Source of the DNA: Galerina marginata
Lineage: Eukaryota > Basidiomycota > Agaricomycetes > Agaricales > Galerinaceae
Assembly (NCBI GenBank): GCA_023014335.1
Contig: JAECYW010000009.1
Location: 2,728,001 to 2,792,000, forward strand
Direction: 5' to 3'
Length of the DNA: 64,000 bases
Shown here: piece after piece, positions 4,786 through 35,855 of the stretch
How positions within the stretch are numbered: position 1 is the first letter of the stretch
How the letters are laid out: every line of letters begins with the position of its first letter
The notes under the pieces: model-generated
What the model was told of the DNA's origin: nothing
Databases searched by the model: none
What the model saw: only the letters and a program-made list of their open reading frames with translations
Made by a program: the position numbers and the translations under genes

Positions 4786-6324
4786 TCAAATTGTAAATGT
4801 GATCTCGACTTGAGGTGGTGTCTCCTTTGAGAAAGATGGAAATAAGCGGTGGATCTTCTTTTTGACCATCTGTAAATGCTTTTCTGCCAATGTTGGGTCC
4901 AGAGGTCGACTGTCCGAGCGGTACATGAACGACAGGTTGAGATGGACGGTCTCCAGATTGGGGAACCTGGTACCAGAGAGCGCATTACCGACAGTCTTCC
5001 ACCCGGAACGAGGCCAAAAGTGCTTCTTTTCGCTTTCAGGGGTCGAAACATACCATTGAATGGTGAAAATAAGCTTGCGTATGGAGCTCGGGGTAAACGC
5101 TTCATTCATGTTGAAGATTTTCAACTTTGACAATGGCAAAATTCCAGCATTGCGGGGTCCACCTCCGAGCTGACCACCGAGTTCGAGGGTTTCCAGCCCC
5201 TCCAATAACCCGAAGTCGGCCTGTCGTGGCAGGAAATATGAAGAGTCTAGGAAGGGGTGGTCGAGGGGTGGATAAGATATATTAGCAATGGCAATAATAG
5301 AAAAAGTAGAAAACTCACTCTCGTGATGTATACCAACGACAGAAAGAAAACGCAACGAAGGCAAAGGTTGTAGGAGCTCCCATACATGTGGATGATGGTT
5401 TGGAGAGAGATGGAGTGACTGAAGGCAAGACAAATCAAAATATGTAGATTCGAAACTCCAAACTGTCGACATTAGACTGGACCGCCTTGTCAAAGACAGA
5501 CGTTCCAGAACCGGTCCCGTAAGCTTTTGTTTTCCCTGCGATGAAGAAGAGGGCGTCGATGAAATTATGTTTCGATCGTCTAGTGTGACTCCCTCCAAGG
5601 AAAGTGACTTTATGTTTGCATAGTTTAAGATCACTTCAGTTGGCAAAGCGTTGATATGACGGATGTTGAGGTCCGTCACAGATGAAAATTGTAATAGAGC
5701 ACGCTTGACGTCCTTGTCCAACGATTCCCATAAATAACATCTTGTATCTGGAATGGATACGAGAAGTTTCTTGACATTTAAGCGACGACTTGAAAGCAAG
5801 TGAAGCAGAATAGGAGCCAAGGCCGATTCCAATGTCTCTTGAAAGTTGAAACCAGCAATTGTTTCCGATAAATGGATAACCAGTGACCTTATGTGCGAGG
5901 CTAAGAGGGGCTGGCCAGGAAGAGCATGGCATGGATCCTGAACGAGAAGCTGCAGAAACTTTTCGAGTTTCTTCCTTCGCGGTGGGTACCCCGGGTCTCG
6001 CGAAAAGAATGCGAACTCCCCATCGTCTTCGACGAGGTGCAGTTCGGCGAAACGGTGTTTTCGGGCAGGCGAAAGAAACGACCACGAAGTCAATGCGCAG
6101 GCTTTTAATGCAGTTTTACGCCGTTCGTTATCGTCCTCCCCGGTGGCCAGAGCCTCGATCGGATACCTGGTGGACTCCCCGCCGTTCAAGGAAGGTTGGC
6201 AAATGAGCCAAAACAAAGGTCGGCCGGTCAGTTTTCTGAGGTCGCCACGCAAAATTTGCACGTGAACCCTCACCTGGAGTTGACCTTCGCGGAAGATGTA
6301 ACTGATTACAGACCCCAAGTTCAT
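4786..6324 (-). pseudogene. F-box-like gene, 3' part, severed by giant element and fused to its end
   Basis: The open frame is 512 codons, but only codons from about 56 on (6159 downwards) belong to the host gene. They read IEALATGEDDNERR, then a KACALTSWSFLSPARKH segment typical of Agaricomycete F-box-like proteins, then a long irregular leucine-rich region (LESALAPILLHLLSSRR, VLERLSLTRR, LETLELGG). The first 55 codons (MNLGSVISYIFREGQLQ...) come from the terminal inverted repeat of the inserted element. The same sequence is encoded outward at the other end of the element (35683 onward). The genuine start, LPQELIELII, sits at 35848-35897. Before the insertion the protein would have been about 471 aa. 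Family members are presumed SCF adaptors, but most are uncharacterised. Whether the chimeric frame is expressed is unknown. Confidence 0.8.
6152..6159. repeat. Left copy of 8-bp target-site duplication (GCCTCGAT)
   Basis: It is identical to 35848-35855. Joining the flanks at this octamer restores the F-box-like reading frame (ATA ATC GAG GCT CTG on the minus strand). Confidence 0.78.
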
Positions 6325-8596
6325 TGAAGAGTTGCCCTCTGTAATTCATTACATTAAAAATGTATATTAGCAGTGTAATACATTACTGAGTAACCCATTA
6401 TGCTTCCCAGCTGAGTGACACCTATAATCAATTACTCAGTAACCCATTATGTTTCTCACCTTGACCACACCCATAATTGATTACTCAGTAATTTATTATG
6501 GGTCATACCCAAGCCATGCCTGCACCTAGGCCACACCCATAATTAATTACTCAGTAACCCATTATGCCTTTTACCTGAGCCATATCTGTAATTAATTACT
6601 CAGTAATCCATTATGCTTCCCACCCAAGCCATACCCATAATACATTACTCAGTAACAAATTATGCTTTTCACCTGAGCCATTCCTGCACCTCTCACCCAG
6701 GCCACACCCATAATTAATTACTCAGTAACCCATTATGCTTCCCACCAGAGCCATACCTGACATCCTGTAATTAATTATTCAGTAACTCATTATGCTTTTC
6801 ACCTGAGCCATGGCTGTAATTAATTACTCAGTAACCCATTATGCCTTCCACCTGGACCATGCCTGTAATTAATTACTCAGTAACCCATTATGCTTCTTAC
6901 CTGGACCATGCCTGTAATTGATTACTCAGTAACCTATTATGCTTCTCACCAGAGCCAAACCTGTAATTGATTCCTCAGTAACCCATTATGCTTCTCACCA
7001 GAACCATGCCTGTAATTAATTACTCAGTAACCCATTATGCTTCTCACCAGAGCCATACCTGTAATTAGTTACTCAGTAATTTATTACTGGACTTAATTGA
7101 GCTATACCTATGCCTCTGGGTCCCACCTCAGCCAAACCTGTAATTGATTACTCAGTAACCCATTATGCTTCTCACCAGAGCCATGCCTGTAATTAATTAC
7201 TCAGTAACCTATTATGCTTCTCACCTAGGCCACACCCATAATTAATTACTCAGTAACCCATTATGCTTCCCACCAGAGCCATACTGTACGTAATCAGGTA
7301 CCCGGACACCCTGGGTACTCGGACATTTATTTTCTACAGAGTCGAGTTCTGGTCAATTGAGAATAAAATTGGTATTTCTAGGTAGTGTTTACAAATGTCT
7401 ATGTAACTGCACTATTATACTTTGAGAATAACAGTTTGAGAATGGGGGAAAGTCAATTGCAGAGTCGTCCGACAGCTATCAGGGTCAATTTCTTAAAATA
7501 GAACAGGCTACGGCAAGACATCTGTGTGTCCGAGGAGCGCAAACTCGTACGCATTGTAAAATAAAAGCATCCAGCCTCGAACGGTAGGGAGAGGCTATAA
7601 ATTCATCCACAAATAAAGGCACTAAGAAGTCCTGACTATGAAATATTTGATATATGCGACACACCATTAGAAATCATTTAAGTTCTGGAGTTTCGGCGAG
7701 ATTGTGTGCGCTGAGATCTGAAAATTCCAATCTTCCCGGCTTTTTTCTGTTGGAAATTTTGATAATATATTGCAGCATAATACTAGGTATTTTTGAGAAT
7801 TTATCTACCCTCCTATCTCGCTTGAGGCGCACGTTTAAGGCTTTAGTCCGAAAAATCCAAACATTCAGAGAAGAGATTTTTTAAATTTAAGCTCTAAAAG
7901 ATTCGAATTAAAAAAATAACAACAATTCTCTATTAAATCGCCTCTGTATATTGCAAAAAAATTTGTGTACATCAGATGAGAACTGACCGAGATACAAAGA
8001 GATTATTCTCGACCACCTTGAAATAGTGCATTTCCTATTACAGATCACGATCTTAAAACGTAATGAGCCGAATAGCATCAATACATAAATGTATTAGTTC
8101 AGGGTGTCCGAGTACCCGATAGGTCAGCTCACTCTTGACTCTGCCAAACAAAATATTCGTAGGAAAGTAAATACACTTTCAAAAAATCCCAATTTTTGCA
8201 CAAGAATTGTAGACATGCAAGAAAGTGTATTGCAAAAAAAACCAGACAATTTTATGAGATATCGTGCGAGCAGTAGGTAAATCGGTCTTAAGTGTCCGAG
8301 TACCCGATAATCAACAGTACCTGTAATTAATTACTCAGTAATCCATTATGCTTTTCACCTAAGCCATGCCTGTAATTAATTCCTCAGTAACCTATTATGC
8401 TTTCTACCACAGCTATACCCATAATAAATTACTGAGTGATCTATTACCCTTCCCACCTAGGCCACACCCAGAATTATTTACTCAGTAACCTGTTATACTT
8501 CCCACCTCGGCCACACCTATAATTAATTACTCAGTAATTTATTATGTGCTTTACACCAGAGCCTCACCCATAATTTATCACTCAGTAACATTCTCT
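6160..8596. repeat. Left terminal inverted repeat made of a TTACTCAGTAA minisatellite
   Basis: The end has a unique part (6160-6345, matching 35662-35847 inverted). An array of diverged units of about 45-50 bp follows, with core AATTAATTACTCAGTAACCC then ATTATGCTTCTCACC. Each unit contains the near-palindrome TTACTCAGTAA. The order of variant units, such as CCAGCTGAGTGACACC and the TTTATTACTGGACTT unit, matches the right array read in reverse, so this is one inverted repeat rather than two independent arrays. It is interrupted at 7289-8316 by another element and continues in a more diverged form to about 8596. Confidence 0.85.
7289..8316. mobile_element. Nested non-autonomous element inside left terminal repeat
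   Basis: About 1.03 kb of AT-rich, unrelated sequence interrupts the minisatellite between a GTA at 7286-7288 and one at 8317-8319. Its ends are imperfect inverted repeats: AATCAGGTACCCGGACAC on the left and, reversed, TATCGGGTACTCGGACAC on the right. A third copy of this terminus lies internally near 8100-8121. No coding capacity is visible. The right arm of the giant element lacks it at the corresponding place. Confidence 0.6.
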
Positions 8597-9052
8597 AGGC
8601 ATTGGCATAGGTAGCCCTGGGGTATTCCAGGGCTACCTACCCCAGCAAACCCATACCCACTGTCAAGGCTACAGGTTTTTTGGTGGGTACAGGTAAGGGT
8701 TCAGGTGGGTATGGTGGGTACAGAAACCCATGTAGATAGACTTGATGGGTCACTGGTAATTCTCATACTGTACACACTAGATAGTACTTCTCTTAATTAT
8801 ATGCATCTAAAATTGTGTAAATCAAAGGAATATCATCTGAAATATGTTCATTTATCAGTTTTAAGTTAAAGTCCCACCATTTTCCCATCTATCTAGCTCC
8901 AGGCCACCTTTCCACCGAAGATTTTCTTACCAGAGGCATTTTAAAAAGTGCCTCTGGTAAGAAAATCTTCGTGCAGAACTCATGTTGGCGCCAATTAAGC
9001 GCCCAGTTCAACCTCAGCACATGACCTGTCAACCCGCATCATGGGTACATGT
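8597..9052. other. Non-coding segment with GGGTA-rich repeats and hairpins
   Basis: This holds a small inverted repeat (GGTAGCCCTGG / CCAGGGCTACC near 8610-8637), irregular GGGTA/GGGTACAGG repeats at about 8690-8740, and the long perfect hairpin at 8916-8971. No gene is seen. Confidence 0.5.
8916..8971. repeat. Perfect 23-bp inverted repeat (hairpin, 10-nt loop)
   Basis: Arms 8916-8938 and 8949-8971 are exact reverse complements (CGAAGATTTTCTTACCAGAG...). The loop is 8939-8948. It could be the collapsed ends of a tiny transposon or a structural signal. Confidence 0.85.
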
Positions 9053-9670
9053 CACTGGACGCAAAAGCACATTTTGAGTGACGAAAAAGGTGTTTTTCAA
9101 CCACTTAAAAATAATGACTTTATTGCGAACCATAAACTGTGCAAGCAGTTATAAATTGTAATTTAATTTAATAATGCTTTTTACGGATCGATCTTTTGGA
9201 TCAACCAATCAACGTCAGTTGACAGGCAACATATCATTTGAATTATCTAATTTTTGGACTTAATTTATTGAGCATTTTCAAGACCTGATAAATTCGCTTG
9301 GAGGATTCATATGTCCTTCATCCAAAATCTGTCTTGGAATTTTGTATAGAGTATTTTCTGTTTCCAGAGGGAAAAAACTAATTGTAACTTATTATTTCTC
9401 TTTCCATAATATTTTGGCTTTTTCTGTCTATTCTCAGGGATGGAGAAAGAACTCCTAAACTTACCTCAATTCAACGAGAAGTATTCAAGGTCCAGAAAAC
9501 AATGTTCATAAATCCAAAAGACAATAATCAACGTAAACTCTTTCCATCACTTTTCAGATACCAAGGGATAAAAACAAAAATTGGACCTTTCAGAATAAAA
9601 AAAATGTTTAGCAGGTACTGGTCCTGTACTTGTTAAGTACTTGGCCGGGCCCTGGCGAAAGGAATTAAAG
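9053..9670. repeat. Inner long inverted repeat, left copy
   Basis: Diverged inverted copy of 31355-31984. Shared blocks include CACTGGACGCAAAAGCACAT, the AATAATGACTTTATTGCGAA block and TTCATAAATCCAAAAGACAA near the centre. It is clearly more diverged than the outer terminal repeats, hence probably older. Only relic sequence is seen. Confidence 0.75.
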
Positions 9671-10499
9671 GGAATTATTTAAACTCGCGACCAGTCAGTT
9701 CGCGAATCGCAGCTCACTGCATTACGTGCGGGTGTGACGGCCAATGCTTCGCAGGACTCTAAAGTCCAAGTTTACAAAGAGTGCAAAAACCCATACTACT
9801 AGTAGGAAATATCTCCGGACATCTACGTGAGATACTTGGAAAACAAAACTCGGTAGGATTTCATTGAGGCGTGTGAGTTGGGCATGATAACTGACCTCGT
9901 TTCGGACCCTCGGATTATACAATTCGGACTCTGAAACTGAGTGATGATCGATGATCCGTAACAATTCGATTCACGTGTTCTGACGATTTTAATTTGTTAG
10001 ATCTATAGTTAGATACGACGGCGTCAGTTTTTTTTATTTTTGGCGCCTAGTGTAACTTTAGAATGACAGGCATAATAGTCGTTGATGGTATGAGTGATGA
10101 CAGAATAACTGTAGCATTAGATTCCGTGTCTAATGCCACCAGGAATTTAACGGCTTCATTTTCGATTCTCTTGAGTTAGTAAAATCGACGACTGATGATT
10201 TGTTTTCTGCAGACTTGGTAATACTGTTAGTATTATATTCCGTGTCTGACGCCGCCAGGAATTCATCGGCCTCGATTTCAATTCTCTTGAGTGAGTGAAC
10301 CCGACTACTGAGAGTTTGATTCTGCAGAGTTGGCATTCACATCTTGGAGAATTTTTGATCCTTTTCAATCCTTCGATTCTTTCAGTTGATTAGAGGAGGC
10401 GTCAAACCCTCGATTACATCAACGTAAATAGAGCACAAAATATACGGCTATCGTTCGCCCAAGAACTACATATTTAATTGTCCGAATCCCCGAACACCG
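9671..10499. other. Non-coding segment with a short tandem duplication
   Basis: No convincing gene. Two head-to-tail diverged copies of a unit of about 113-118 bp lie at roughly 10107-10340 (shared blocks ATTCCGTGTCT, CCAGGAATT, GATTCTCTTGAGT). The minus strand stays open through both (68 codons, 10130-10336), giving a repeated Ser/Glu-rich peptide that I do not consider a proven gene. Confidence 0.45.
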
Positions 10500-10881
10500 C
10501 TAAAGCTTCTCTTTGTTGCACTGGGCGCAGTATTTGCTAAGCGATATCAGGGAGTGTTGAACATTAAGTTAAGAGATAAAGACTCACTGAAGGGGGATCG
10601 TGTTACCAATTTCGACGTGCACTTGAACTCCGGCAACACGGACAGTATGGCCTATGACTGTCTGGAATGCGATGTATTAGTCAAGTGTCGAAGACATACG
10701 AACTAAAACTCACCGGCTTTCCCTTGAGTATTATCCACGCGACGTCCTTGTATCGCGCAAGCCTCTTCACGGTCCTCCCATTTACCCTATACTTCACGAA
10801 GCACGGTGCGTGATGACAGAGTCGCGGGAAGTTTGCGACGCGGTTGGCGAGAGCCCGAGTGATTTTTGGGTTACCGGACAT
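10500..10881 (-). CDS. Small three-exon gene, 92 aa, unknown function
   Basis: I do not recognise the protein. Exons on the minus strand are 10714-10881, 10588-10661 and 10500-10536 (279 nt), with GT-AG introns of 52 and 51 bp that start GTGAGT. The N-terminus is MSGNPKITRALANRVANFP, followed by a basic segment with LCHHAPC. The second exon encodes a beta-like stretch (VRVAGVQVHVEIGNTIPL) and the third a short tail ending YCAQCNKEKL with a CxxC pair, which could bind a metal. Support for reality: a degenerate second copy at 18890-19253 keeps the same exon layout and the same 5' flanking sequence. It lies in the giant element and may be cargo. Confidence 0.6.
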
Positions 10882-11890
10882 TCTAGTCGTTGAAGTTCAA
10901 GGTAAAGGAAGGTACTACATAAGAGTAGAAATGTCAACTTACTTTGTTGTGTTTGAGGCTCCGAAGGATTAGAGCAAGCGCGATGGATGGTTGTGGTGAA
11001 GTGCAAGGTGTGAGTGAGAAGAGCGTTACGATGAGGTTACGATTTATAAGTCACGAATAAGCGTCGATGGTCGCGGGAGTGGGTGGGTTATTTTTAGAAT
11101 GAAGTCATTCGCGATAGACGCTGGTTGTAGGTGGCGGTGCAAAAATCAATGTTATAAACGCTCGGCAATTTGAGTGTACGGATGATATCCTGGACAACGC
11201 GGCCTTGATGACAAGCGATCAGTGATTATTTCAAGTTATGGCTTCATCAACTCCATCTACAGGTCAGTCCACTTCATCTAATTCATCGCCAGAAGAATTC
11301 TCGTCATCTACTAAAGTACTAATGGATGCCGCTACAGAACCACCAGTCAAGGAAATCTGAAATGAACCAAAGGCCGGCTGTGTTAGTTGACCTAACATGC
11401 TGTGATGCATGTAGTTTGAAAGTTGGAACGTTGATTGTGTGGGTTGTGTCGGATGAGGGCCCTAGAGAACAGAGAGGTCTGTTTTCTGCCTTTTTCTTGT
11501 GGTAACTGACTCGTCTCTAACGTTATCCTCATTTCTTTCGGCACCAAGAAGTTATGAGAGCTTGCTTTTAGTCTGAACTGGCACCGCACTCGCAATTGTC
11601 CAGATATGTTGCTCCGGTAGGATGGCCTCTGCGGTGATAACAGGATATGGGAAGTCGCGCGCCTTCACTCCACGCCGCCAGCTGTCAAGCTCGTCCATTG
11701 TTTTGACATTCGGTTTTTATACTTGACGCCGACAGGTACCGCTTTGAACAAAATTCAAGAGACCCTCGTCTGCTGCTTCTTGATCAATAGCTGGACAAGC
11801 ACGCAGAAGAACAGCGTCATGTTTCCCAGTTACGGACCCCCGACGACTACGGTGTACAATCCCGTAGTCGCGCTTAGCCTTCGACGTTTC
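10882..11890. other. Mostly non-coding; conserved leader of the 92-aa gene, one short frame
   Basis: 10930-11150 is the 5' flank of the 92-aa gene and is conserved upstream of its decayed copy (about 19262-19440). A short + frame at 11238-11366 (42 codons, Ser/Thr-rich, with a possible donor after ACAG at 11262) could be a first exon, but nothing downstream supports it. Confidence 0.4.
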
Positions 11891-12099
11891 CTAGTCTGGT
11901 GAGTTCGGTTTTTTAGCTTCTTTCCCTTTGTTTTTGCTGATTATTCTTCTCCCGTGCTCATCAAGGATAGTTGTGTAGGCCGAAGGTTCTGCCAGTAGGA
12001 TAGCAAGGCCAACATGTCCAGCTGCTCGTGCCGCTCTACCAGCTCTTTGGACCCAGGAAGAAATTGAGCTCGGTAGGTTTTCCACTGAACCACCAGATC
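11891..12099 (-). pseudogene. RecQ-type helicase C-terminal remnant
   Basis: The minus strand encodes SSISSWVQRAGRAARAAG, then LAILLAEPSAYTTIL. The QRAGRAAR core is helicase motif VI, and the following hydrophobic block plus PSAY is typical of fungal RecQ-like helicases. Just upstream, in another frame, DLVVQW (12082-12099) matches the preceding conserved strand, so there is a frameshift between the two halves. Motifs I-V are not visible nearby. It is therefore a fragment of an SF2 helicase gene, such as those often found in fungal mobile DNA. Confidence 0.65.
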
Positions 12100-13848
12100 T
12101 TCGGTGATTTTCAATTCAATCAGCTCTTTTGATCCCCGCCTACCCCTTTGCCTTTCGCTCGATCCCAGAGGTCAGCATTGAAATATAGACCATATTAATC
12201 CCGAGATGCGAATGAATGAGTCAATTATGGTCATAACGAGCGAATCTTTGTTATTTTGAAGAATCGAACAAGGAACTGAAGCACAAAACTCTCTCCCAAT
12301 CCATACAATTTCCGACCGGTGAGTGATAGCCTCGTTATGAGTCCTATTTATAGGACGAGTTCTTTTACCGTCTGAACCCACCAAAATTTTGGCCAGACTA
12401 ATGATCACTTAGCCGGCAAACCCCGGTACCTATTTTTAGACAACCTTCTATTTCCGTTGTCACCGGCCTTCCCTTTCCTCACTTTCATCAGCGTCGCTTG
12501 CCTTTACCTCATTGACATGGCTGCCCAGTCACACCACCACTTTGAATAGCGGCAATGGCGCAACCTCACCACCGTGACGACCGCTCTTACCAGACATGTA
12601 CGGGCTTTGACTTGGTTCACAGTGAATTACCCATTTGTTTTTGTTCATCTTCTTGGTTTTTGACCAATTTCCATGCAGCATGAACATATGCCGCAGCTTG
12701 GAGGACATAAATGATGATTGCAAGTCGGGCATGGGTGGGTGACAGGCTGAAGTTCGGATGGGTGAAAACTAGGTGAGTAACCGTTCAATGACGGTGCGAA
12801 GTAATACTCAAGTTTTTCTAGCGTTCGGTTCAATTTAACGGCTGCGGCCCTGGCATAATCAACGAAGGCAGTTTGAATCCCCAAGTCGGCAGGCAAAGAG
12901 AAAGAGTAGGGCTGGGCACGCAGTTCGACAACGGCACATTGAGTGAGGTATATCCGTCCTTAAGCCTCTAAACGTCGGCGCCGCGGAAAGCTTATTCCTC
13001 CACTTCTTGTCCCGTCCATTTCAGGTTGACTCGGCTGCAGACCCTGGACACAGCTCGTCAAATGAGGGGTGCAGTTACGCCGTAGTCGAAGTCTGGTACA
13101 TATTTCTCTCCATCCTCTCCTTTGCCATGCCGCAGCTTGAGAATGTAGGTGGCAGCAATCGCTAGTTGGGAGTCAAGGACTTGGGTGAGCGGGCGACGGC
13201 GGGAGATTGAATGCTGAGGTTGAAATGTTGAAGTTCGGACCTTGTGGATGGCTGAAAATGAAGTGAGTAAGTGTTCAATGGTATGAACTATTTACTCAGC
13301 TGGTCGTTTCGAAGGGCTTCCAGGTCTGAAAAGATGATGGGAGGAAGGAAGGCATGTTGAAATCAAGAAACGAACGCAAAGTTCAAAGGCAAATCAAATG
13401 TCCGATTCCAAAAGGCACGTGCTTGCGCAAAACAATGAACTTGGCAAAAGTTTTTCAAATGCAACCAAGATAACGTAGGTGAAACGACGGACTTGGGTTG
13501 GACTTGGGTAAAATTAAACTGAGATTCATGCAAGGTGAAAGAAGAAATTTGGAAAATGACGATGTTAACAGAACTTAACAGATCTGAAAGCACGGAAGGA
13601 GATATCGCTTAGGAAATACCGAGAACAACCAACCTGAGCGGAACTGAACAACCGGCATTCTCACTGGGCGCGCGTGCGTACGTTAAACGTTGAGTACGTT
13701 GAGGCCTAGGTTAACTTTGAGGAACGAGCCCTATTTATATCCTTGGGTCCAGAATTTTGTCACGCTATAAGAAACGAGTGGCTGATCCATAACTGATTGC
13801 AAACTTACAAGAGCTGACTTCGCAAAGTAAGTTGTCACTTTGCCCATA
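12100..13848. other. No recognisable gene; a diverged duplication
   Basis: Segments near 12685-12800 and 13128-13300 share ATGCCGCAGCTTG, TGAAGTTCGGA and GTGAGTAA...GTTCAATG in the same order, suggesting an old tandem duplication. On the minus strand near 12690-12760 a Cys-rich peptide (HPCPTCNHHLCPPSCGICSCC) is open, but no gene model could be built around it. Confidence 0.35.
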
Positions 13849-14139
13849 CTAATTACAACTTATTTTCGCAAATAAGCAATTTAGGTTTTTCCTGATGCCG
13901 AAAGGGAAGGTAATTTTGCTGGCACCTGGAGTCGTATCCCCGATTGCGCTGGTGGCTATAATTTGGAACTTTCTGTCGGCGTATCTGGCAACCAGAGCGT
14001 CTGCAAAAGCTCGTATTTCTAGCGCCTTTTGGAGGTTGAAAGACTGGTCGCCAACTTTTGCTGTCTTCCCGTGAGGCTCCACGTATATCGCGAGGGAGGG
14101 CCAAGTTATCGGTCGCTGGCAGCCGGCGGAAAGAGCCAT
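13849..14139 (-). CDS. Short hypothetical frame, 96 aa, uncertain
   Basis: Minus-strand open frame with amino-acid composition like a real protein (KALEIRAFADALVARYADRK, then a Gly/Thr loop and ITFPFGIR). I do not recognise a family. It may be one exon of a larger gene, since no intron structure or paralogue could be established. An overlapping frame ending at 14161 is its likely shadow. Confidence 0.3.
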   Translation of the reverse strand: MALSAGCQRPITWPSLAIYVEPHGKTAKVGDQSFNLQKALEIRAFADALVARYADRKFQIIATSAIGDTTPGASKITFPFGIRKNLNCLFAKISCN

Positions 14140-14684
14140 CTGGAACTTCGTCCTCGCCCACGATGTGTACTTAGTCCTGGATGAAATTGGCGCGCCAGTT
14201 CTTGAGGTATAACGGGTAAATTTTTCTAATCACATTTTGACGTGAACATATTTGCAGCAACTTTTTCTTATGTTCTCAGAGCAATCACTGCAATGAGCGG
14301 CTGGTAAATTGTACGGAATCTGATAAGCGCCGCTGTTCTCGTCTCAAGCACCGACTTTACCGACTTCATGTGATAGGCGCCGTGTACCGCATTGCTTTCC
14401 GAACGCAGGCACTCCTCCCGTGGTCATCTTACTGGGAGGCATTTTTAGTAAGCCGACGGCCATTTTTATCACTTCCCCTTTGCGTCGATGTTTCGCATTG
14501 TTTACCTCGTCCGACAGTTACTTCCCCCCAACTTTTCGTCATTCTAATCTCTTATAGCTTATTACATAAAATCTCGCACATCAAATACAGGAAACACGAG
14601 AATTCAAAGTGTAAGTGTCGAAAGCATAATTGGATGGTCCTAGCAATCGTGCCCAAGGAAACGGTACTCGAGTAAGCTAATGCT
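14140..14684. other. No gene seen
   Basis: Spacer inside the giant element. Only short frames without exon signals or recognisable motifs are present. Confidence 0.4.
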
Positions 14685-15356
14685 CTAAGCCTGATTCTTT
14701 GCTCTTGTTGAGGTATATTTGAGATATCTCCTCAGGAATTCAAGCGTTACCCAATCATTATCGTATTTTGATAATACGGGGTACTTCTCAGAAGCCTTGT
14801 TTCCAGTTAGGAATAGGTTGGCCCAACGAGTAGTCCCACACACCTGCTTTCTTAATATTTGCAATCTGCCTTCTTGCTGGCCTTTTAACGGCAAGGAGAC
14901 ATCCAGCTTGTCCTTTGCAAGAGCGTGGATTGATGCCTATATCAGGATCCTGAGTTCCATTTCTGAAATTGCTGAAATGCTGCCTACCCGTATGGCAATG
15001 AAATCCTCGTTTGTCCATTGAAGGATAGAATGCAAGCTGCCTTTGTTTGCGTTGGTGGGCCTGACAATAGTTTGGCTGGGCAAAGCTACAGGGCGGGCCC
15101 GGATTAGCCGGTAATGGTTGGTAACAGGAGGATGAGGCAATATTTGGGTCGCGGTTGCCCGATCAGCAGAATAAAAATTGGGAGTTTGGGCGGTGTAAGG
15201 CAAGGATGATCTGTGAGAATACCGAGCTATGTACGGTAGTTCTCCGTGCATAGTGAGGCAATTTAGGTTCTTCTTCAAGGCGGACCAACGTATTGTAGCC
15301 CTATCGGTATTCTTTGAATAGGGGATTTTTGGCATGGTGATAAATAAGTAGGGCAT
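14685..15356 (-). CDS. Two-exon hypothetical protein, 198 aa
   Basis: Exon 1 (14988-15356, minus) and exon 2 (14685-14912) are joined across a 75-bp GT-AG intron in phase 0, giving 597 nt ending TAG. The first 100 residues are Ser/Thr/Pro/Arg-rich. A compact, charged domain spans the junction: ILQWTNEDFIAIRDKLDV, LPLKGQQEGRLQILRKQ, RWANLFL, YPVLSKYDNDWVTLEFLRRY and LKYTSTRAKNQA. The smooth continuation of sequence character across the splice site supports the model. I do not recognise the family; the domain looks helical and could be regulatory or DNA-binding. It sits in the giant element and could be cargo or an element-encoded accessory protein. Confidence 0.6.
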
Positions 15357-15979: not shown

Positions 15980-16027
15980 GATGGGGCCTTTGTCATTCCC
16001 GTCACTCCTATTCGCCCTTAGTATTAC

Positions 16028-21390: not shown

Positions 21391-21470
21391 GTGGTGACCG
21401 AGACAGGGGGAAAGGTTTTCCGACAGTTAGCCTTCTCCATTCGAACCAGAGCTGAGTTTTTCTATATTTT

Positions 21471-26800: not shown

Positions 26801-28033
26801 CCCATCATCCCGTTAAACCCATCATGGATGCTCTCTATACTTCGTCATTTCCATCTCGACACCATTCATATGAATGAAGGACACGGAGGTATGTCTTACA
26901 TGGTCACTGCTACTGACGGAATTACAGGTTGGCCTGAAGCTCGAGCACTTCGAAACATGGAAGCTGCCGGGGTCGCTAAATTTATTTACGAAGATCTCAT
27001 CTGTCGCTTTTCGTGCATTCCATACATTACTGTCGACCACGGTAAGGAGTTCAAAGGTGTTGCTAAACTTCTTTTCGAGCAGTACGGCGTCCACGTTATC
27101 TTTTCAAGCGAGTACCACCCGCAAGGAAATGGAGTCAGCGAGCGCCAACACCAGCAAATCGTTAACGGCGTTATCAAATGTGCGAGCCAAGATAAGCGCC
27201 GATGGCCTCTTTACCTTCACGCTGTTTTGCTTGCTATTTGCGTTACCACCTCTCGGACAACTGGATATTCACCCTATTATCTCGTTTACGGTATCTTTCC
27301 TATCTTTTCTTTTGATCTCGACGATGCGACGTGGCAGACGCTTGACTGGCACGAAGTTACTGACACCCTTTCGCTTATCGCAATCCGAGCCCAACAGATC
27401 GCGCGCCGCGACGAAATTGCAACCCAAGCTTACCAACGAGCTCGTTTATCTCGCCAACGCGCTATCGACGACTTCAACAAGCGTTATCCCGGTCATTTCT
27501 CCTTCCACGACTTCCAGGAGGGTATGTGGGTGCTCCGACACGAAACATGGCTCGACGGTCAGAAGGGCAACAAAGAACTATGGCGATGGTCCGGTCCATA
27601 CATTATTCACGAGAAGAAGGAGAATAACAGCTACGTACTCCGCGAGATTGACGGAACCGTTATGCGTGGAACCATTACCGCTCACCGGCTCAAATTATTT
27701 TATTATAGATCCGACAACGAGCTTCTCGTTACCAAGCCAGCACCACGAACGCGTGCACCAAGGAACGACACAGCCACTTGGTTCAACGACGACCTCATCT
27801 TCCCGACATGGGAGGACACGATCATTCGCGAGCGCATCGATCCGACTGAACTCGGCGAGGAAACTCACGCTACTATCCGCGCAGGTGAACACTATGTTTT
27901 GTTGCTGTACCCGACGCTTTATGGCGACACGTTCAACCTCGAAAGCTACGACGATGCACTTTGGGACTGGAATTATAGCCCTACGATCTCACGGCGTCAA
28001 TTTAAGCGCTTGGAGCGACAGCTGAGTAATTGA
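23861..28033 (+). CDS. Pol polyprotein (RT-RNase H-integrase), 1,390 aa
   Basis: ORF2 of the retroelement. The reverse transcriptase has LDLYAGYD and catalytic FIDDG near residue 353, in place of the common Y-V/I-DD. RNase H follows (VIVAVDAAALFGAGWVVYQ; KAELYGVFRAF). The integrase has an HHCC zinc finger near 934 (HDQCGH...CVPCQ), a DDE core (TATDGITGW near 1018, TVDHGKEF, then YHPQGNGVSERQ), and a C-terminal GPY/F-type module (WSGPYIIHEKKENNSYVL near 1243). No chromodomain is obvious after it. The frame is uninterrupted, so the element may be active. Its ATG overlaps the ORF1 stop, consistent with coupled reinitiation or a frameshift. Confidence 0.95.
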   Translation: MKGTVPRSQPVPQATLGRSIQAMIGNPAFFEHDSLISAFPPPQYDHYLRYAAAASPSFNPIITPWTIRAFSSNYSDRKFNTNLSMKKKYKPVDRKVRPVPTYMPNPVAQEFKPIPLPPIPILPTHPPSRKDFVPTERLTQDRLQSLLNTIPEHFLSSEEIDLIAYVVINRQNAFAFTFAEKGTFKREYYPDYEIPTIEHTPWQKPPIRVPKALEPIVRAELREQRQAGRFEDTTSSYRAALFAVMKKDGKKVRLVVDLQDLNAVTIRDASLPPQIEDFAEGFVGHAIYGALDLYAGYDARILAVKSRPLTAFHSIEGPQQQCTLPMGFTNASQEFQRCSSHAVAPEIPKSIGIFIDDGGVKGPKSTYNNEPIPENINIRRFVYEYATTLDRILARFIAAGITASGLKTTLATPTLNIVGSVVSIEGWHLEQGLVTKITNWPPPTNVSQVRGFLGTMGCGRKWIKGFAMIAKPLTSLTKISDTDFEFTQEAMAAMDRLKYLATTAPVLISIDYEQAKLITQLPRASDEGLVIVAVDAAALFGAGWVVYQVRENEKKPVIYGSCTYNDRENRYSQPKAELYGVFRAFKQLRHRIWGIRFSLEHDAKFLAEMIRTPDLPNAPMTRWISYLQLFDFELRHVKADNHKAPDGLSRRPHADHDSDDDDAEEFLDRFIGSTEREVIYTPSQVKSQLSSLLEMCLAAGRLFQLSYITQAQNVNPHEPDRLFISHLSSSEPHDDVYTPCSRKESPKNLLDESMLRNASPFTYIGREFYHRNTPFEVVDYHCDLGNETVALPITYYIPKYMGSFRGAYNQFYLANGHMGGLLEPYDNHARHDAIQCPEMDDLDGIREAITCIGHAYGTKDSDGEHYWMEICEYLKTNTLPDRLEHDEKERKAFLRRCERFFWHDERLWTRPKKDSLPRLVITDLSRRQELLRLAHDQCGHRGRDPTYKHLQERYFWPNMYDSVAYFVRSCVPCQLYSKAKPIIPLNPSWMLSILRHFHLDTIHMNEGHGGMSYMVTATDGITGWPEARALRNMEAAGVAKFIYEDLICRFSCIPYITVDHGKEFKGVAKLLFEQYGVHVIFSSEYHPQGNGVSERQHQQIVNGVIKCASQDKRRWPLYLHAVLLAICVTTSRTTGYSPYYLVYGIFPIFSFDLDDATWQTLDWHEVTDTLSLIAIRAQQIARRDEIATQAYQRARLSRQRAIDDFNKRYPGHFSFHDFQEGMWVLRHETWLDGQKGNKELWRWSGPYIIHEKKENNSYVLREIDGTVMRGTITAHRLKLFYYRSDNELLVTKPAPRTRAPRNDTATWFNDDLIFPTWEDTIIRERIDPTELGEETHATIRAGEHYVLLLYPTLYGDTFNLESYDDALWDWNYSPTISRRQFKRLERQLSN

Positions 28034-28124
28034 TTAATTTTATTTCATCCCTACTTCCGTTTCAATCCCTACTTCCCTTTTTCTTTTCTATTGATGTTGG
28101 GGGCAACATCTACATCCCCGGCAC

Positions 28125-29460
28125 TGTGGTAGGGATTGACAATCCACTCGTCGATCTCCACTTTTAGTGTTGTGGGAACGTAGATTAGCTCAATATACCT
28201 TTTGTTTCATTTTCGCATTTCACGTCTTGAACACGATTATTTTCACTTTCTATTCAATTTCTAGGTAACTACCTATCCTACCTTCAATTCTGTCCATGCG
28301 ACGAGTGCGACATTCAACTGCGCCGGCGACAAATCAAGCCAAGTACAAAATCACACGCGATCGGCGGGAGCCGAATGCGATCACTTACCGAATTTGGCCT
28401 TAACGGAGTCAATTTGGAATACGCCTCTGCTAGCACGCGCTTCGTATAACTCGCGCTATGCTCCCTCCTCTCTCCCGCAAAAATTCAACAAGATTCAACA
28501 TCATTCCCTCGACATACACACGAAGTTTCGAAGGATTATCGGCACTGGTTCACGCTATGTTTCATTTCCGCTCTTCTAACTTGTTTTTCTGATTACAAAA
28601 ATTCTTATCTCGATTTATCAGCTGGATTCTTATTTCAAATTCAAGTATTCCATTCCATCGGACCCGGTCTGCGAAACCCGAAGGAGAGACAAGTCCTCGC
28701 GCTCCCATACGACGAATTTCGGCTGCAAACACCGTCGGGGTCCGGTGTGCTGTCTGGTCAACAGCTTTTCATCATCCTTGCGCCTTTATTCCTCGTTTCA
28801 ACGTCACCAGGTCGATGCGCCAATCGGGAGGAGTCTCTCCGGAGGATTAGTAGGCTTGGTACGATCCTTTTTCGTCATTTTATCGCATGGACTCTTAGGT
28901 ACAATCACCACACATTCCTATTTTTATTCATTCACCATTATGTTTTACCTTCTCTTCCACATTTCCACCTTGCCAAGACTCGTAGAATTATCACTATTGG
29001 TTCGTTTCGTTTCTATGGCGGTCCGAGTGACGTGAGAGCACGCGTGCACTCGGGAAAATTCGTTTGTATTCATGTTATATTAGTTTCGGGACGCCCCCAT
29101 CGAATGGCACCTCTTTCTTGGACTCAGAATCTTCGTATACATTGAGAAAACGAGCCGCGAAGTCCTCAAACTTCAAGATATTGGTCAAACGATTTCTATT
29201 TACCTCAAATCCTGATTCGCAAAGTTAAGTTTCTCTTGTTTCTCGTGGATCTTTTGACTACGCGAAGTATAGGAACTCCTCCTACTCTATCATTCACCCC
29301 TCTTTTGCACTGCACTCGCTTGTGCATCCCGGATTCATCTTTCGAGCTGAGTACTTATTTCCTCGATTTATTTCACATTTATCTACTTTATCTATCTATT
29401 TCTATCTAGGCTTCTCTCGACCTTTCTTCTCCCCACCAGAGAACGCATTTCTCCACCACA
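28125..29460 (+). repeat. 3' LTR
   Basis: Matches the 5' LTR over 1,336 bp without a difference in the stretches compared. The 91 bp between pol and this LTR contain a weak purine tract (TTGGGGG near 28098). Confidence 0.95.
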
Positions 29461-29464
29461 ACGG

Positions 29465-29603
29465 GCAAGGCAACATTGTCGTGTTCGGAGGCGTTCACTG
29501 GCAAGTAAATGGAAATGTATACGTTGGAGGTAATGTGTTTTTTGGACTTTTGATGTTACAAACTAACAGATATTCTTTGAAACTGTATTTCACCTGCATC
29601 TGA
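29465..29603 (+). pseudogene. Small gene, 3' part, downstream of Ty3/gypsy insertion
   Basis: Continues the frame broken at 20054 after the second ACGG (29461-29464): GQGNIVVFGGVHWQVNGN, then VYVGGNVFFGLLML and a stop at 29601-29603. A possible donor (GGAG/GTAATG near 29530) means the natural 3' end could differ. Confidence 0.55.
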
Positions 29604-30369
29604 TAAATCTTTGTCTTCGAAAAAATGTCAACTATTATTACATGAAATGAATATATTTGATATAAACACAGACAACTGCTGTTAAATCTACGTGAGATGA
29701 CTGCAGCGCTGGCTAGGAAAGTTTAGATACGTTGAAGTGAATGTTATCATGAGTCACATTATTGTCGGTCGTTTATCATACAAACCTGCGTCTTCTGAAT
29801 CGAATTACGGCCGACTTGTGCGGTTTGAGTTTTCAATGAGTCGATACATGTTGCGTAGTCGCATCACGACACGCATTTACGCGCGTGCTATTTTCGGCGC
29901 ATGCGACGCATTCCATGATTTTGTCTGAGGTGACCCTGGATAGGATGTTGGGCCAGATCAAAGTGTTTGGAAGCTGCTTATGAGAAAATTGTGCTTAAAC
30001 AGGATTTATCCTGATTAGGCACTTTTGATGTTTCCGATAATCTTCCAGCGCTTCTGCTCAGTTCCGGAATGAGTTGCGCAATATTTTCGCCTTAATTGCT
30101 GGATTTTCTTCTAAAATGTTATGTACTTCTAAGAATTCCATCGCCTTGCGAGCGTAGAGAAGGTTTATGTCGGCAGCTTGTTCTTAGCGGTCAGGCTTTA
30201 AATCGGATAGAGGTCTTCGAGTAATGCTACATCAGACATAGAGACATTACTTAGATACGTTCAACATCCGCCTCTCTCGGACCTCTTTTTTTACCTACCG
30301 ATATTCTCCTTCAAGATATGGTATCATTGGATGCTGATATCTTGCGTGCCATTGGCAAAAGAAGCGGTT
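29604..30369. other. No gene seen
   Basis: AT-rich spacer in the giant element with only short frames and no repeats noted. Confidence 0.4.
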
Positions 30370-30715
30370 AAAGTGACCCTCAGTCGCTCCAAAAGTTTTA
30401 TGTACGGATGACAAATAATGTGTTGGTGGAATTTTTCCCCACTAAGAAGGTCTGGTCCTCTCAGATGGAAATACATCTGAAGACATGTCGGTTCATAAGT
30501 CGTAAGTCTTTGATATAACCTGACGTTTCTTAACGCTAACACAGAATAGACGCAAAAAGACTGTGTCGAAAATCATTTTAGACACCGAAGCGGAAGAAAG
30601 GTGACGTTTGCGATGCCATACTGATCACAAATTGGTCGCTAATTTTCATGACAGTGACGGGGATTCTGACGTTGATCTGAACGAATACGATTTGGAAGAT
30701 GGTTTTATGTGAGCA
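30370..30715 (+). pseudogene. Gene remnant with acidic exon, unknown
   Basis: Three consecutive exon-like pieces lie on the + strand: LQKFYVRMTNNVLVEFFPTK leading into KVWSSQMEIHLKTCRFI (to about 30497); RRKKTVSKIILDTEAEE (from about 30548); and, after a GTGACG...GACAG intron, SDGDSDVDLNEYDLEDGFM (to about 30710, followed by GTGAGC). The basic-then-acidic arrangement resembles nuclear or chromatin proteins, but I do not recognise a family, and no start or downstream exons were found. Confidence 0.35.
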
Positions 30716-31354
30716 TATCTTGGATCTCCTCACCGGTTGCATTAACGTGTAAATACATAGTGACGAGGCAGTCGGTGGACGAGGTCGAAATTACTTTCCA
30801 TAATCAGTCTCACAAGACAGCAACAGTTTCCTGTAAGGGTCGAGTACATGCCGCGCGCAGCGTTGGCCCGCATAGCCAGTCGTTCGTATTGGGACTCTAT
30901 CAGCTCAAGTCGCGCATCGCATACCGCATTCAGATTCCAGCAACTTACATTGAGACCCATTCAAAAAGTTGCCTTCGCTCAGCGTCTCCTCAGTCCCTCC
31001 TGGCGCTCCTCGGCCTCGTCCATCTGAATAGAGCGACGACTTCGGAGCGCCACTGAGTGGCTATTTCCAAATGGTTGTCGAAGAGTCACGCTTAGCAAAA
31101 TATACTCGGGATTGAGTTGATCGACTTTTTCCTTCTCATCGGTGGCTTCAATTGTTCTTGCCCACTGGCCCAGTGCGTAGTGCCTGCGGTTAGACTTAGC
31201 GTGCAGCACGGAGGAGTCGGGCGGATACATAATTATGTAGATAGGAGACCGGCATGCCCGTGCGTCTTGTAGCACGATAATCCATTGATTTCAAAAAAAA
31301 AAAAGTTCATTAAGAGATCACTTCAAGATCACCAAATAATGCCTACGCAACTTT
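30716..31354. other. No gene seen
   Basis: Spacer. The + frame 30709-31056 has no motif or supporting splice pattern. Confidence 0.4.
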
Positions 31355-31984
31355 TTGATCCTTTGCCCTCCTTTTGCCAAGGCGAAGAACGCCTGAGTAC
31401 CCAACAGGTACAAGACCAGTACCTGTTAACTATTTTTTTGAATTCGAAAGGTTCAATTTCTCTTTTTACTCCTTGGCACCTGAGAAGTGATGGAAACAGT
31501 TTATTTTGCCTATTGTCTTTCGGATTTACAAACATTGTTTTCGGGATATTGAATATTTTGCGTTAAATTGAGGTAAATTTAATAATGCTTTGCCAACGCC
31601 TAAGAATAAACAAAAAAAGCTGAAATATTATGGAAGGCGAAATAATAAGTCACGAATAGTTTTCTCCCTCTGGAAAGAGGAAATACTCTAAACAAAATCT
31701 CAAGAAAGATTTTGGATAAAGGACACACGAATCCTACAAACAAATTTAGCAGGTCAGGGAAATTCCAAATAAATTTAGTCCAAAAAATATGTAATTCAAA
31801 TTACTTGTTGTCTGTCAAATGATGCGGACTGGCTGATCCCAAGGATCCATCAGTAAAAAGTGTTATTAAATTAAATTACAATATATAACTGCTTGAACAG
31901 TTTATGGTTCGCAATAAAGTCATTATTTTTAAATGGTTGAAAAACACCTTTTTCGTCGCTCAAAATGTGCTTTTGCGTCCAGTG
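31355..31984. repeat. Inner long inverted repeat, right copy
   Basis: Diverged reverse complement of 9053-9670, ending at TTTTGCGTCCAGTG. See the left copy for shared blocks. Confidence 0.75.
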
Positions 31985-33366
31985 TGTTTCTGTTACCTGT
32001 AGGGTACAAAATTGCCTACCCATACCCATACCCATACCCATACCTGACAAAACCCGCACCCTAACCCACACAGGTCATCATACCTGTGACAATGCCTATG
32101 ATGATCTGCCTTAGTGTTGGATGGCTTTGGTTCAAGTTGATGATCACATGGATTTCATGTATGCAGCATGCTGCTTTTTGAGCCTTTCACAATTCTTACA
32201 AAGAATTAGCTAGTTTATTCTTGATATACCACATCCAAATACTTACTTTTGTCGATATTGCTGCTGCTTTTCAGCCCCTGATCCTTTGGACAATGCAGAC
32301 AGCTTCCTACAGGGTACAAAGTGATTCATGTTGGTGATGGTTGATGACCAGTTAGCCGCCGGGTAGACCGTAGCAGCACCTTTGAAATGGTATCTGAATG
32401 ACTTAGAGAAAACCAGACCAATAAGTATAATTGAGAAAATTCAATCTATTCCAATCTCTATATAACATAATGTTCAAGGACTGACAAACTTCGCGATGTA
32501 ATGATAAATTGCCATTGTAGGCACGATGCTCCCGCAGCATTGTTTGATCAGGCGAGCTGAGCGTGGTGGATTCAATTGTGGTGCTCCTCACAGCATCGTT
32601 CATGTCGGCGATCACAGTTGCGGGTGTGCCAAGTCGTCCGAGTCGCTCCTGTGGCGTCGTTCATGTTGGCGGTTGAGTCGCAGATGCAGTCGGCATTGAT
32701 CACTGTGTTGGCTGGCGGTCAAATCGTTCATGCTGGCGGCCAAGTCTAGTCGCGGTCGTCCAAGTCGCTCCCGCAGTGTCATTCAAGCAAGCGGTCAAGT
32801 TGTCCCAAGTTGTCTGAGGCGCTCCCGCGGCAACCTTAATTTTGTTCCGAGTTGTCCGGGTCGCAGTTGCAGGTTCCAAGTGGCTTGCAATGCTGCCGCA
32901 GCATCGTACATGTTGGCGGTGAGTCGCAGTCGCAGGTTTCAAGTGGATTGCGATGTCCCATGGCGTCGTACATGTAGCAGTGTCGTTGTTACTGCTGTGG
33001 GCACCGTTTGTATTGCTGGTTCTCGCCATCGTATTGCCTTCACTCGTGTTTCGGTCAGGCGGGCTGAGGATGGACATGTCAATTCTTGATGTGCCGGCTC
33101 CTGCGGCGTCTTTCTCGTCTTCGTGTACCGTAATTGTTGGGCAGCCGGGTAACCTGTGCGAGTAGAACGTGTCAGCTTGGAGGAGAGGCAAGTGGTACGT
33201 ACCCGGGATTTTCTTGACTTGCTATTCTGATACCCCATCGACCTTCCCAAGTCACTCCTCGCATCCTGATCAACCATGCCCTAGTGTAGGCTCAACATTG
33301 TTGAAGTCTTCGAGACTTGGAAGTCGGAGCGGCGAGGTTGACGGGTTTGTGGTGGTGGCTGGCAAG
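31985..33366. repeat. Non-coding repeat-rich segment
   Basis: Contains (TACCCA)n at 32017-32044. Between about 32560 and 33010 there are irregular repeats of GTCATTCAAG/TCGTTCATGTTGGCGG and AAGTCGCTCCCGC-like motifs, which keep several frames open on both strands. No credible gene is seen. Confidence 0.5.
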
Positions 33367-33458
33367 ATGTTGGTGACATGTTGGTGACGAGTTGGTGACG
33401 AGTTGGTGACGGTCATCACCAACTCGTCACCAACTCGTCACCAACATGTCACCAACAT
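33367..33458. repeat. 92-bp near-perfect palindrome (43-bp arms, 6-nt centre)
   Basis: Arms 33367-33409 and 33416-33458 are exact reverse complements made of TTGGTGACGAG/TTGGTGACATG units. The centre is CGGTCA. Confidence 0.92.
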
Positions 33459-33918
33459 TTTTGGGCAGTCTGACCGCCGTCGAGCATACGAAGCGCCTTT
33501 GCCCTCTGCTCAAACGCCGTGCTCGCTACGTTCACGCCGTCGCAGAGATGCTGACTGCCAAGGTGAGCAGCGCACTCAATCTTCCGATGGCCGGTGCACT
33601 GATATCAACGGCCAATCGAGTAGGTCTCAGATAACCCACCTGCACCTATATCAACTGCTTTCCTCACCTCCGACTCCTAATCTATGCCTTTGTGAGTACC
33701 TGCCAATATTGTCTTGTTGTTGTCTTCTTTGTAATGGGGGAGAGTGCAGGTTATAATGACAAGGGCCAGGTATGCGCTCGTATATCCATTCGCCCTTGTG
33801 TATCACTCATGTGGGCTGTACTCAGCACAGTTCTTTCAGCCCCGCCTTGGTGGGTGTTTAGCCCGGCCCCTACCTGAGGTCCTTTGTGCCGCACCATTCG
33901 CTTTACCCTGGCGTTTAT

Positions 33919-34600
33919 CATTGGCCCTACCCGCGGCCGATGATTCATTGTATTCTTACTCACCGTTGGCCCTACCCGCGGCTGATGGTGCAGCTCATTG
34001 TCGTCGTACCCGCGGCTGACAGCAGGCATATTTTTGCTCATCGTTGGCCCTACCCGCGGCCGATGATTCATTGTATTCTTACTCACCATTGGCCCTACCC
34101 GCGGCTGATGGTGCAGCTCATTGTCGTCGTACCCGCGGCTGACAGCAGGCGTATTTTTGCTCATTGTTGGCCCTACCCGCGGCCGATGATTCATTGTATT
34201 CTTACTCACCATTGGCCCTACCCGTGGCTGATGGTGCAGCTCCTTGTCGTCGTACCCGCGGCTGACAGCGGGTGTATTTTTGCTCATCGTTGGCCCTACC
34301 CGCGGCCGATGATTCATTGTATTCTTACTCACCATTGGCCCTACCCGCGGCTGATGGTGCAGCTCCTTGTCGTTGTACCCGCAGCTGACAGTGGGCGTAT
34401 TTTTGCTCATCGTTGGCCCTACCCGCGGCCGATGATTCATTGTATCCTTACTCACCATTGGCCCTACCCAAGGCTGATAGTACAGCTCGTTGTTGTCCTA
34501 CCTGTGGCTGGCAGCGGGTGTATTTTTGCTCATCATTGGCCCTACCTGCGGCTGATAGTGCAGCTCTTGTCATTGCCACACCCGCTTGGCACCTGCGGTG
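33919..34600. repeat. 123-bp minisatellite, about 5.5 copies
   Basis: Copies begin near 33919, 34042, 34165, 34288 and 34411 with TTGGCCCTACCCGCGGCCGA. Each holds a second, diverged half (TTGGCCCTACCCGCGGCTGA). Because 123 is divisible by 3, long frames stay open on both strands (33886-34665 +, 33751-34458 -). They are probably a consequence of the period rather than genes. Confidence 0.85.
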
Positions 34601-34639
34601 AGTTACTAGTGTTGAATTACAGGCTTGGGACAGGATTGA

Positions 34640-35847
34640 ATCAATTAATAATTATTGGTTACTGAGTAATTGATTACAGCTATGGCTCTAGTGAGAAGCA
34701 TAATGGGTTACTGAGTAATGTATTATGGGTATGGCTTGGGTGAGAAGCATAATGGGTTACTGAGTAATTAATTACAGGTATGGCTCTGGTAAGAAGCATA
34801 ATAGGTTACTGAGTAATTAATTACAGGCATGGCTCCGGTGAGCAGCATAATGGGTTACTGAGTAATCAATTACAGGTTTGGCTGAGGTGGGAGGCATAGA
34901 CATAGCTCAATTAAGTCCAGTAATAAATTACTGAGTAATTAATTACAGGTATGGCTCTGGTGAGAAGCATAATGGGTTACTGAGTAATTAATTACAGGCA
35001 TGGCTCTGGTGAGAAGCATAATGGGTTACTGAGTAATCAATTACAGGCATGGTCCAGGTAAGAAGCATAATGGGTTACTGAGTAATTAATTACAGGCATG
35101 GCGCAGGTGAAAAGCATAATGGGTTACTGAGTAATTAATTACAGGCATGGTCCAGGTGGAAGGCATAATGGGTTACTGAGTAATTAATTACAGCCATGGC
35201 TCAGGTGAAAAGCATAATGAGTTACTGAATAATTAATTACAGGATGTCAGGTATGGCTCTGGTGGGAAGCATAATGGGTTACTGAGTAATTAATTATGGG
35301 TGTGGCCTGGGTGAGAGGTGCAGGAATGGCTCAGGTGAAAAGCATAATTTGTTACTGAGTAATGTATTATGGGTATGGCTTGGGTGGGAAGCATAATGGA
35401 TTACTGAGTAATTAATTACAGATATGGCTCAGGTAAAAGGCATAATGGGTTACTGAGTAATTAATTATGGGTGTGGCCTAGGTGCAGGCATGGCTTGGGT
35501 ATGACCCATAATAAATTACTGAGTAATCAATTATGGGTGTGGTCAAGGTGAGAAACATAATGGGTTACTGAGTAATTGATTATAGGTGTCACTCAGCTGG
35601 GAAGCATAATGGGTTACTCAGTAATGTATTACACTGCTAATATACATTTTTAATGTAATGAATTACAGAGGGCAACTCTTCAATGAACTTGGGGTCTGTA
35701 ATCAGTTACATCTTCCGCGAAGGTCAACTCCAGGTGAAGGTTCACGTGCAGATTTTGCGTGGCGACCTCAGAAAACTGACCGGCCGACCTTTGTTTTGGC
35801 TCATTTGCCAACCTTCCTTGAACGGCGGGGAGTCTGCGTGCTGTCCC
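34640..35847. repeat. Right terminal inverted repeat made of a TTACTGAGTAA minisatellite
   Basis: Reverse-complement counterpart of 6160-7288, with the same order of variant units and the same unique end (35662-35847). From 35683 it encodes outward the same MNLGSVISYIFREGQLQ peptide that now heads the truncated F-box-like frame on the left. Confidence 0.85.
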
Positions 35848-35855
35848 GCCTCGAT
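35848..35855. repeat. Right copy of 8-bp target-site duplication (GCCTCGAT)
   Basis: Identical to 6152-6159. It lies within the codons for IIEA of the severed gene. Confidence 0.78.

Follow-up and report, generated by a model that had tools for sequence, protein, structure and literature searches.

An F-box-like gene of Galerina marginata lies in two parts on either side of 29.7 kb of other DNA, and the question that this locus raises is what kind of mobile DNA lies between the two parts and whether it arrived as a single unit. The locus is part of a 64,000-nucleotide stretch, the whole of which was analysed and is called the window here (assembly GCA_023014335.1, contig JAECYW010000009.1, positions 2,728,001 to 2,792,000 of the forward strand). 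The 29.7 kb is a nest of three levels, in which an outer element holds a 22.9-kb inner element and this in turn holds a long terminal repeat (LTR) retrotransposon. Our reading of the nest, in which we place considerable confidence, is that an outer element making 8-bp target duplications was followed by a derivative of a giant transposon of the CACTA type, a kind with a tnp2 transposase, and then by a Gypsy-type retrotransposon.

The octamer GCCTCGAT stands at both borders of the 29.7 kb, as a preliminary description made from the letters of the window had reported. It occurs five times in the window when both strands are counted, and therefore only the position of the two border copies is informative. 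The interrupted gene that the description had proposed is borne out, since the flanks joined through a single octamer form one open frame of 471 residues; the right flank, on the minus strand, codes for MTTSTLPQELIELIIEA, and the left flank carries the frame onward. The intact gene, for which a search had been recommended, was found in the form of an uninterrupted G. marginata protein that covers the query entirely at 81% identity, with no gap at the junction and 83% identity over the first 225 residues. The empty site can thus be read at the protein level, from an uninterrupted G. marginata homologue rather than from a comparison of strains. The left flank (4500-6151) matches the genome at its own site alone, the right flank not having been searched, and so there was no sign at the DNA level of a paralogue that might have donated one half of the gene. 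Just inside the octamers lie the long inverted repeats that had also been reported, 944 nt in length and 98% identical. The outer left end was searched against the 69.3-Mb genome, a check for further copies, and gave ten matches that make up five inverted pairs. We judge the insertion to be real because all five pairs share both extreme ends (CGGATACCTGGTGGACTCCC ... GGGAGTCTGCGTGCTGTCCC), and each has a perfect 8-bp duplication of its own (GCCTCGAT, GTTGTTTG, TATACTTT, CGAACTTC and AACAATTC).

The four siblings of the outer element, which measure 5,352 to 7,837 bp, reveal the nest. All four align with the window to position 9048 and resume at 31997, with a few bases at most between, and the outer element of the window without its inner insert comes to 6,753 bp, within the sibling range. 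The first proposal, one giant 29.7-kb transposon of a novel type with genes as cargo, agrees with the 8-bp duplication that brackets the entire 29.7 kb, but we reject it because four siblings, with identical ends and a size of 5.4-7.8 kb, have nothing corresponding to 9053-31984, and this inner part has its own ends, its own 3-bp duplication and its own relatives elsewhere; the chance that it is right seems to us close to nil. What stands of the preliminary description is the splitting of the F-box-like gene by a transposon that left an 8-bp duplication, and the presence of a DUF6699 gene and small genes; what falls is the single giant element, and with it the idea that these genes are cargo of the 8-bp element, since they belong to the inner one. 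A helicase remnant that it had listed found no counterpart, there being no helicase match among 15 inner-element frames given to Pfam. Its suspicion of a giant element holds good for relatives of the inner element elsewhere in the genome and fails for the 29.7-kb insert itself. For annotation, the lesson is that an apparent 30-kb cargo element can be a nest, which sibling comparison resolves.

The inner element has inverted repeats of 589 nt (83% identity) with the terminal form CACTG...CAGTG, and its first 301 bp give 13 genome matches, in which six inverted pairs and a lone end can be recognised. It shares both ends, and much of what lies next to them, with an element of 83,388 bp at C23:3074051-3157438 (C1, C5, C8, C13, C23, C39 and C40 are other contigs of the same genome): 4,269 bp match at 99.9%, 6,734 bp at 99.8% and 2,524 bp at 99.8%. 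The part of the C23 element that is missing from the window contains a tnp2 frame (PF02992, 39.5 bits against a cut-off of 28.6). The nested retrotransposon has two 1,336-bp LTRs with zero mismatches and a 4-bp duplication, ACGG; among its frames are matches to protease, RNase H and integrase families, with RNase H ahead of integrase, a Gypsy-like order. Direct repeats (73-92%) lie about 8.3-8.4 kb apart in the inner element (window 10455-11141 and 18826-19426) and are present in C23 too.

The whole genome was searched with a 34-letter pattern of the inner-type end, allowing up to three mismatches, and with the reversed pattern as a control. Eighteen end motifs were found, nine on each strand, and none with the control. 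They include seven complete pairs, on C1 (74,463 bp), C13 (229,405), C23 (83,388), C39 (21,124), C40 (75,397), C5 (39,726) and in the window (22,932), and every pair is bordered by matching 3-bp duplications, which in the same order are TTA, AGT, TAA, TCA, TTA, CCA and TGT. All seven begin with CACT(A/G)G and finish with its complement, and so have CACT-type termini. Over the stretches compared, the inverted repeats are 99.2-100% identical in C1, C13, C39, C40 and C5, and the figure is 83% for C23 and the window; in the inner element and the giants they run for about 0.6-2.1 kb, some of these lengths being lower bounds. Two unpaired ends, C8:1752901 and C5:23072, share a TCA flank and have repeats that are 99.3% identical along 409 nt; they are probably one element split by contig ends, with a length of no less than 91.9 kb should the contigs adjoin. 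The ends at C13:33390 and C40:426877 have no partner among the 18 listed ends.

Five of the seven complete pairs contain a tnp2 transposase. A genome search with PF02992 gave 72 matches, with one each within C1, C5 (40.6 bits against a cut-off of 28.6), C13, C23 and C40 and one beside the C5:23072 end; there was no match in C39 or the window element, and these two copies, without tnp2, would be non-autonomous. When the C23 tnp2 protein was used as the query, the next best matches were C5:6388 (77%), C13 (77%), C40 (76%), C1 (75%) and C5:2122658 (73%), all of them between or beside inner-type ends, and below these came four at 62-64% (C31:42019, C34:1763962, C40:3102016 and C23:1315696) and three at 53-55% before identity fell to about 35%. 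Pairwise identity among four giant tnp2 proteins is 74-80%. In the protein database the C23 protein has at least 50 relatives among the 8000 best candidates, which were the ones scored; most of these relatives are unnamed, and one is from Coprinellus aureogranulatus. The viral contigs and plasmids searched with the C23 protein gave no relative.

The giants also have other genes in common, as seen when frames of 40 codons or more were compared across the whole of C5 and parts of C23, C40, C1 and C13. DUF6699 recurs in C5, C23 and the window; g3 and g5 in C5, C23, C40 and the window; g4 in C5, C23, C40 and C1 (53-67%); g7 in C5, C23 and C40; and a coiled-coil-like gene, whose Pfam matches are all below cut-off, in C5, C40 and C1. 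An F-box-like gene is found in C5 and C23 (48-49% identity, with a Pfam F-box match below cut-off), and two G. marginata proteins match it at 52-53%. The non-transposase genes common to C5, C23, C40 and C1 have about 35-67% protein identity. In C5 and C23 the order DUF6699, tnp2, g7, F-box-like gene is identical, and g3, g4 and g5 shift place or strand. With the C23/window pair excluded, 226 of 2007 frames match another element at more than 50 bits; a control against 138 kb of other DNA gave matches for 7 of 2007 at the same E-value, five of them above 50 bits, all at one repeat. These are counts of matching frames, which overlap and include transposase and end repeats, and are not gene counts. 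Among 24 C5 frames given to Pfam (23 of the 56 frames of at least 115 codons and one of 91), the only ones above cut-off were tnp2 and DUF6699.

Two weak frames are peculiar to single copies. C23 has a copy-specific MYND-like frame below the Pfam cut-off. The C1 giant has a 319-codon frame (L043:4856-5812) with similarity to gyrase-B/TOP2-type ATPases, below Pfam cut-offs, which may be a captured piece of a host gene or something else.

The relatives of the inner element look like giant multi-gene CACTA transposons, and we assign them to the CACTA kind because of their ends, their 3-bp duplications and their tnp2 domain. Because they share genes and have outer duplications, we infer that units of 40-83 kb move as one piece. 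It is reasonably likely that mushrooms hold a class of giant elements that are based on tnp2 and not on a tyrosine recombinase, span about 40-230 kb, have long inverted repeats and 3-bp duplications, combine old shared genes (DUF6699, the F-box-like gene and others) with copy-specific ones, move as whole units and leave deletion derivatives like that of the window. Several observations speak against this view. The C13 span contains Plavaka matches (877283-878427), and the split element has one in its C8 part (1791217, with another, at 1804291, below cut-off) and a KDZ fragment in its C5 part; a 5-kb sample of C39 (L052, C39:2866000-2871000) is a tandem array of repeated identical frames with no shared gene. 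These show that later insertions and repeats also enlarge the spans, and the 229-kb C13 span may be inflated. On C40 the tnp2 match contains one TAG stop codon, and a further tnp2 fragment lies at 1625486; a DUF4218 match after tnp2 falls, like the F-box match, below Pfam cut-offs. Size and the proposed movement, moreover, are judged from one genome sequence, and of the giants C5 alone was read whole.

These points bear on the suggestion that the giant spans are ordinary CACTA elements which inserted small and were later swollen by nesting, so that only the ends and tnp2 ever moved. The Plavaka matches and the C39 tandem repeat would be expected of such swelling, and the window copy has itself been enlarged by a retrotransposon; against it stand the non-transposase genes that C5, C23, C40 and C1 share at that level of protein identity, the common gene order of C5 and C23, and the 24 searched C5 frames, none of which has the domain of another transposon. 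A genome-wide Plavaka search found none in the outer copies or in the other complete pairs. We consider swelling an unlikely explanation of the giants as a whole. A fusion of a CACTA element with a large DNA virus, after the manner of Teratorn (piggyBac plus herpesvirus), would suit the size, the multi-gene content and the gyrase-B/TOP2-like frame of C1, but the selected giant-element frames given to Pfam included no viral gene and the C23 tnp2 has no relative in viral contigs, which leaves this origin exceedingly improbable. The relation between the C23 and window copies could also be turned around, so that the window copy, a sound element with its two ends present, would be the original smaller state and C23 the product of a 69.9-kb insertion. 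No duplication was found at either edge of the 69.9 kb in C23, however, and that part contains genes common to other giants, tnp2 included; because of this, we take the window copy to have lost the middle, and the reverse to be highly improbable. As an 83-kb and a 23-kb copy that are 99.8-99.9% identical where shared, the two make a natural pair of full-length element and derivative for studying how giants shrink.

On our reading, the events were as follows. A transposase-less DNA transposon of about 6.75 kb entered the F-box-like gene and made the 8-bp duplication. A derivative of a giant CACTA element, retaining both ends of its 83-kb relative and lacking the transposase-bearing middle, then entered this outer element, making a 3-bp duplication, and the Gypsy-type retrotransposon is nested within the derivative. 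As in known CACTA elements, movement would be by cut and paste, with tnp2 cleaving at the ends of the element and integrating it with a 3-bp stagger. The window copy would presumably depend on transposase supplied in trans, like dSpm in maize; according to the cited passage, internally deleted Spm copies (dSpm) with both ends are mobile only with help in trans (PMC2613891), and the window copy answers to this description.

How the giants compare with known CACTA elements can be judged from the passages of the papers cited here. They resemble the CACTA/EnSpm elements (tnp2, Transposase_21; soybean Tgmt*, maize Spm/dSpm) in their CACT-type ends, 3-bp duplications, a tnp2 match above cut-off and deleted derivatives without transposase. 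Target duplications in the CACTA/EnSpm clade are given as 2-5 bp, usually 2-3 (PMC12730594), and the 3-bp duplications of all seven pairs fit this range. The giants are unlike CACTA elements in their long inverted repeats, their set of further shared genes and their size, 40-229 kb against up to 20.5 kb. EnSpm/CACTA families of 16-20 kb are termed significantly enlarged (PMC6431247), a Chenopodium CACTA element measures 16.5 kb (PMC8978399), the soybean element Tgmt* 20.5 kb (PMC2613891), and an element from the same wider group in Cryptococcus 7.2 kb (PMC12810828). No giant CACTA lineage was found in the literature searched, a limited library. If our reading is true, a tnp2 transposase would be able to mobilise units that exceed the CACTA elements of the cited papers several-fold.

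Starships are the giant gene-carrying transposons best known in fungi, and they have a tyrosine recombinase (captain). The giants resemble them in size, multi-gene content and fungal host, and differ in having long inverted repeats, 3-bp duplications and tnp2; Starships are not known to have these three features. No tyrosine recombinase was found in 50 selected giant-element frames given to Pfam, no captain model having been run. If true, a tnp2/CACTA lineage of Starship-like size would be another route for the movement of gene blocks in mushrooms. Starships of 42-606 kb are reported, in the cited passage, from the basidiomycete Tremella (PMC13066641). Polintons/Mavericks and Teratorn are likewise large multi-gene DNA elements with terminal repeats, as far as the cited passage describes them (PMC6431247); unlike them, the giants yielded neither polymerase nor capsid nor herpesvirus genes in the frames searched.

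The outer family appears to be of another kind. Its outermost 13 nt are not inverted copies of each other and are alike in all five copies; the inverted repeat begins at nucleotide 14 and is 1.1-1.3 kb long, with 85-99% identity. The preliminary description had seen no transposase frame in the element with the 8-bp duplication, and none was found in it or in its siblings. The longest frame, of 267 amino acids, lies within the repeats, Pfam matched none of ten frames from the family, and of the 135 matches to the KDZ (Kyakuja-Dileera-Zisupton) transposase (PF18758) in the genome, none is inside the five copies; because of these two negative searches, the family is taken as non-autonomous. The enzyme that mobilises it in trans could be a KDZ transposase from the same genome and not a hAT or other transposase with 8-bp duplications. 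The 135 KDZ matches provide candidates, and 8-bp duplications fit KDZ elements (Zisupton/Dileera and fungal KDZ1; PMC12730594, PMC12810828, in the passages cited), but hAT elements usually produce them as well, according to the cited part of PMC12730594. The outer element is like KDZ in its 8-bp duplication and inverted repeats and unlike it in that none of five copies has a transposase and the inverted repeat starts only at nucleotide 14. No further sequence with both outer ends was found in the genome, KDZ element ends not having been compared nor hAT transposases sought, and we regard the KDZ attribution as tentative, with the balance tipping slightly against it. For comparison with other families, the end sequences of the outer element are CGGATACC and GGGACAGC.

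Near-matches of the outer right end were followed at C12:3333170 (L014:571-591) and C21:31327 (L015:628-648), and no autonomous partner came of them. Both match the right end at 20 of its 21 terminal bases and then adjoin another repeat at its end (GACTCGAGCAATGCC...), and the two sites share a left flank (98.5% over 800 bp); an older element of the outer type may have left them behind. A third near-match, C41:2998193, with three mismatches, was dropped, as it showed no similarity to the outer copies. Compared with L009, the sibling at C12:1714980-1720331 (L012:981-6332) carries its interior in the opposite orientation with respect to its asymmetric ends, as recombination between its long inverted repeats would give.

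Table 1. Positions in the window of the split gene, the outer and inner elements and the nested retrotransposon
Feature	Positions	Strand	Remarks
F-box-like gene, 5' end, with one octamer copy	35848..35897	-	ATG at 35895-35897
F-box-like gene, remainder, with other octamer copy	4786..6159	-	uninterrupted G. marginata homologue
Left 8-bp target duplication, GCCTCGAT	6152..6159	.	
Right 8-bp target duplication, GCCTCGAT	35848..35855	.	
Outer inverted repeat, left arm, 49-bp repeat array	6173..7116	+	
Outer inverted repeat, right arm, 49-bp repeat array	34891..35834	-	
Outer element, left part, transposase-less	6160..9052	.	sibling comparison
Outer element, right part; first 3 bases are the second TGT copy	31985..35847	.	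sibling comparison
Left TGT, 3-bp duplication of inner element	9050..9052	.	
Right TGT, 3-bp duplication of inner element	31985..31987	.	
Inner element, internally deleted relative of C23:3074051-3157438	9053..31984	.	22,932 bp
Inner inverted repeat, left arm, begins CACTGGACGC	9053..9641	+	
Inner inverted repeat, right arm, finishes GCGTCCAGTG	31396..31984	-	
Junction lacking C23:3083305-3153170 (about 69.9 kb, including tnp2)	13320..13321	.	
g3 frame	14940..15521	-	matches C5 and, by C5 homology, C40; same gene in C23
g5 stretch	16230..16463	+	matches C5 and C40; same in C23
DUF6699 gene	17469..18176	+	common to C5 (46%) and C23
LTR retrotransposon (Gypsy order) nested in inner element	20055..29460	+	absent from C23 counterpart

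Adjoining the split F-box-like gene is a frame with a HET (heterokaryon incompatibility) domain, at 36892-38103 on the minus strand (PF06985, 32 bits against a cut-off of 22.5).

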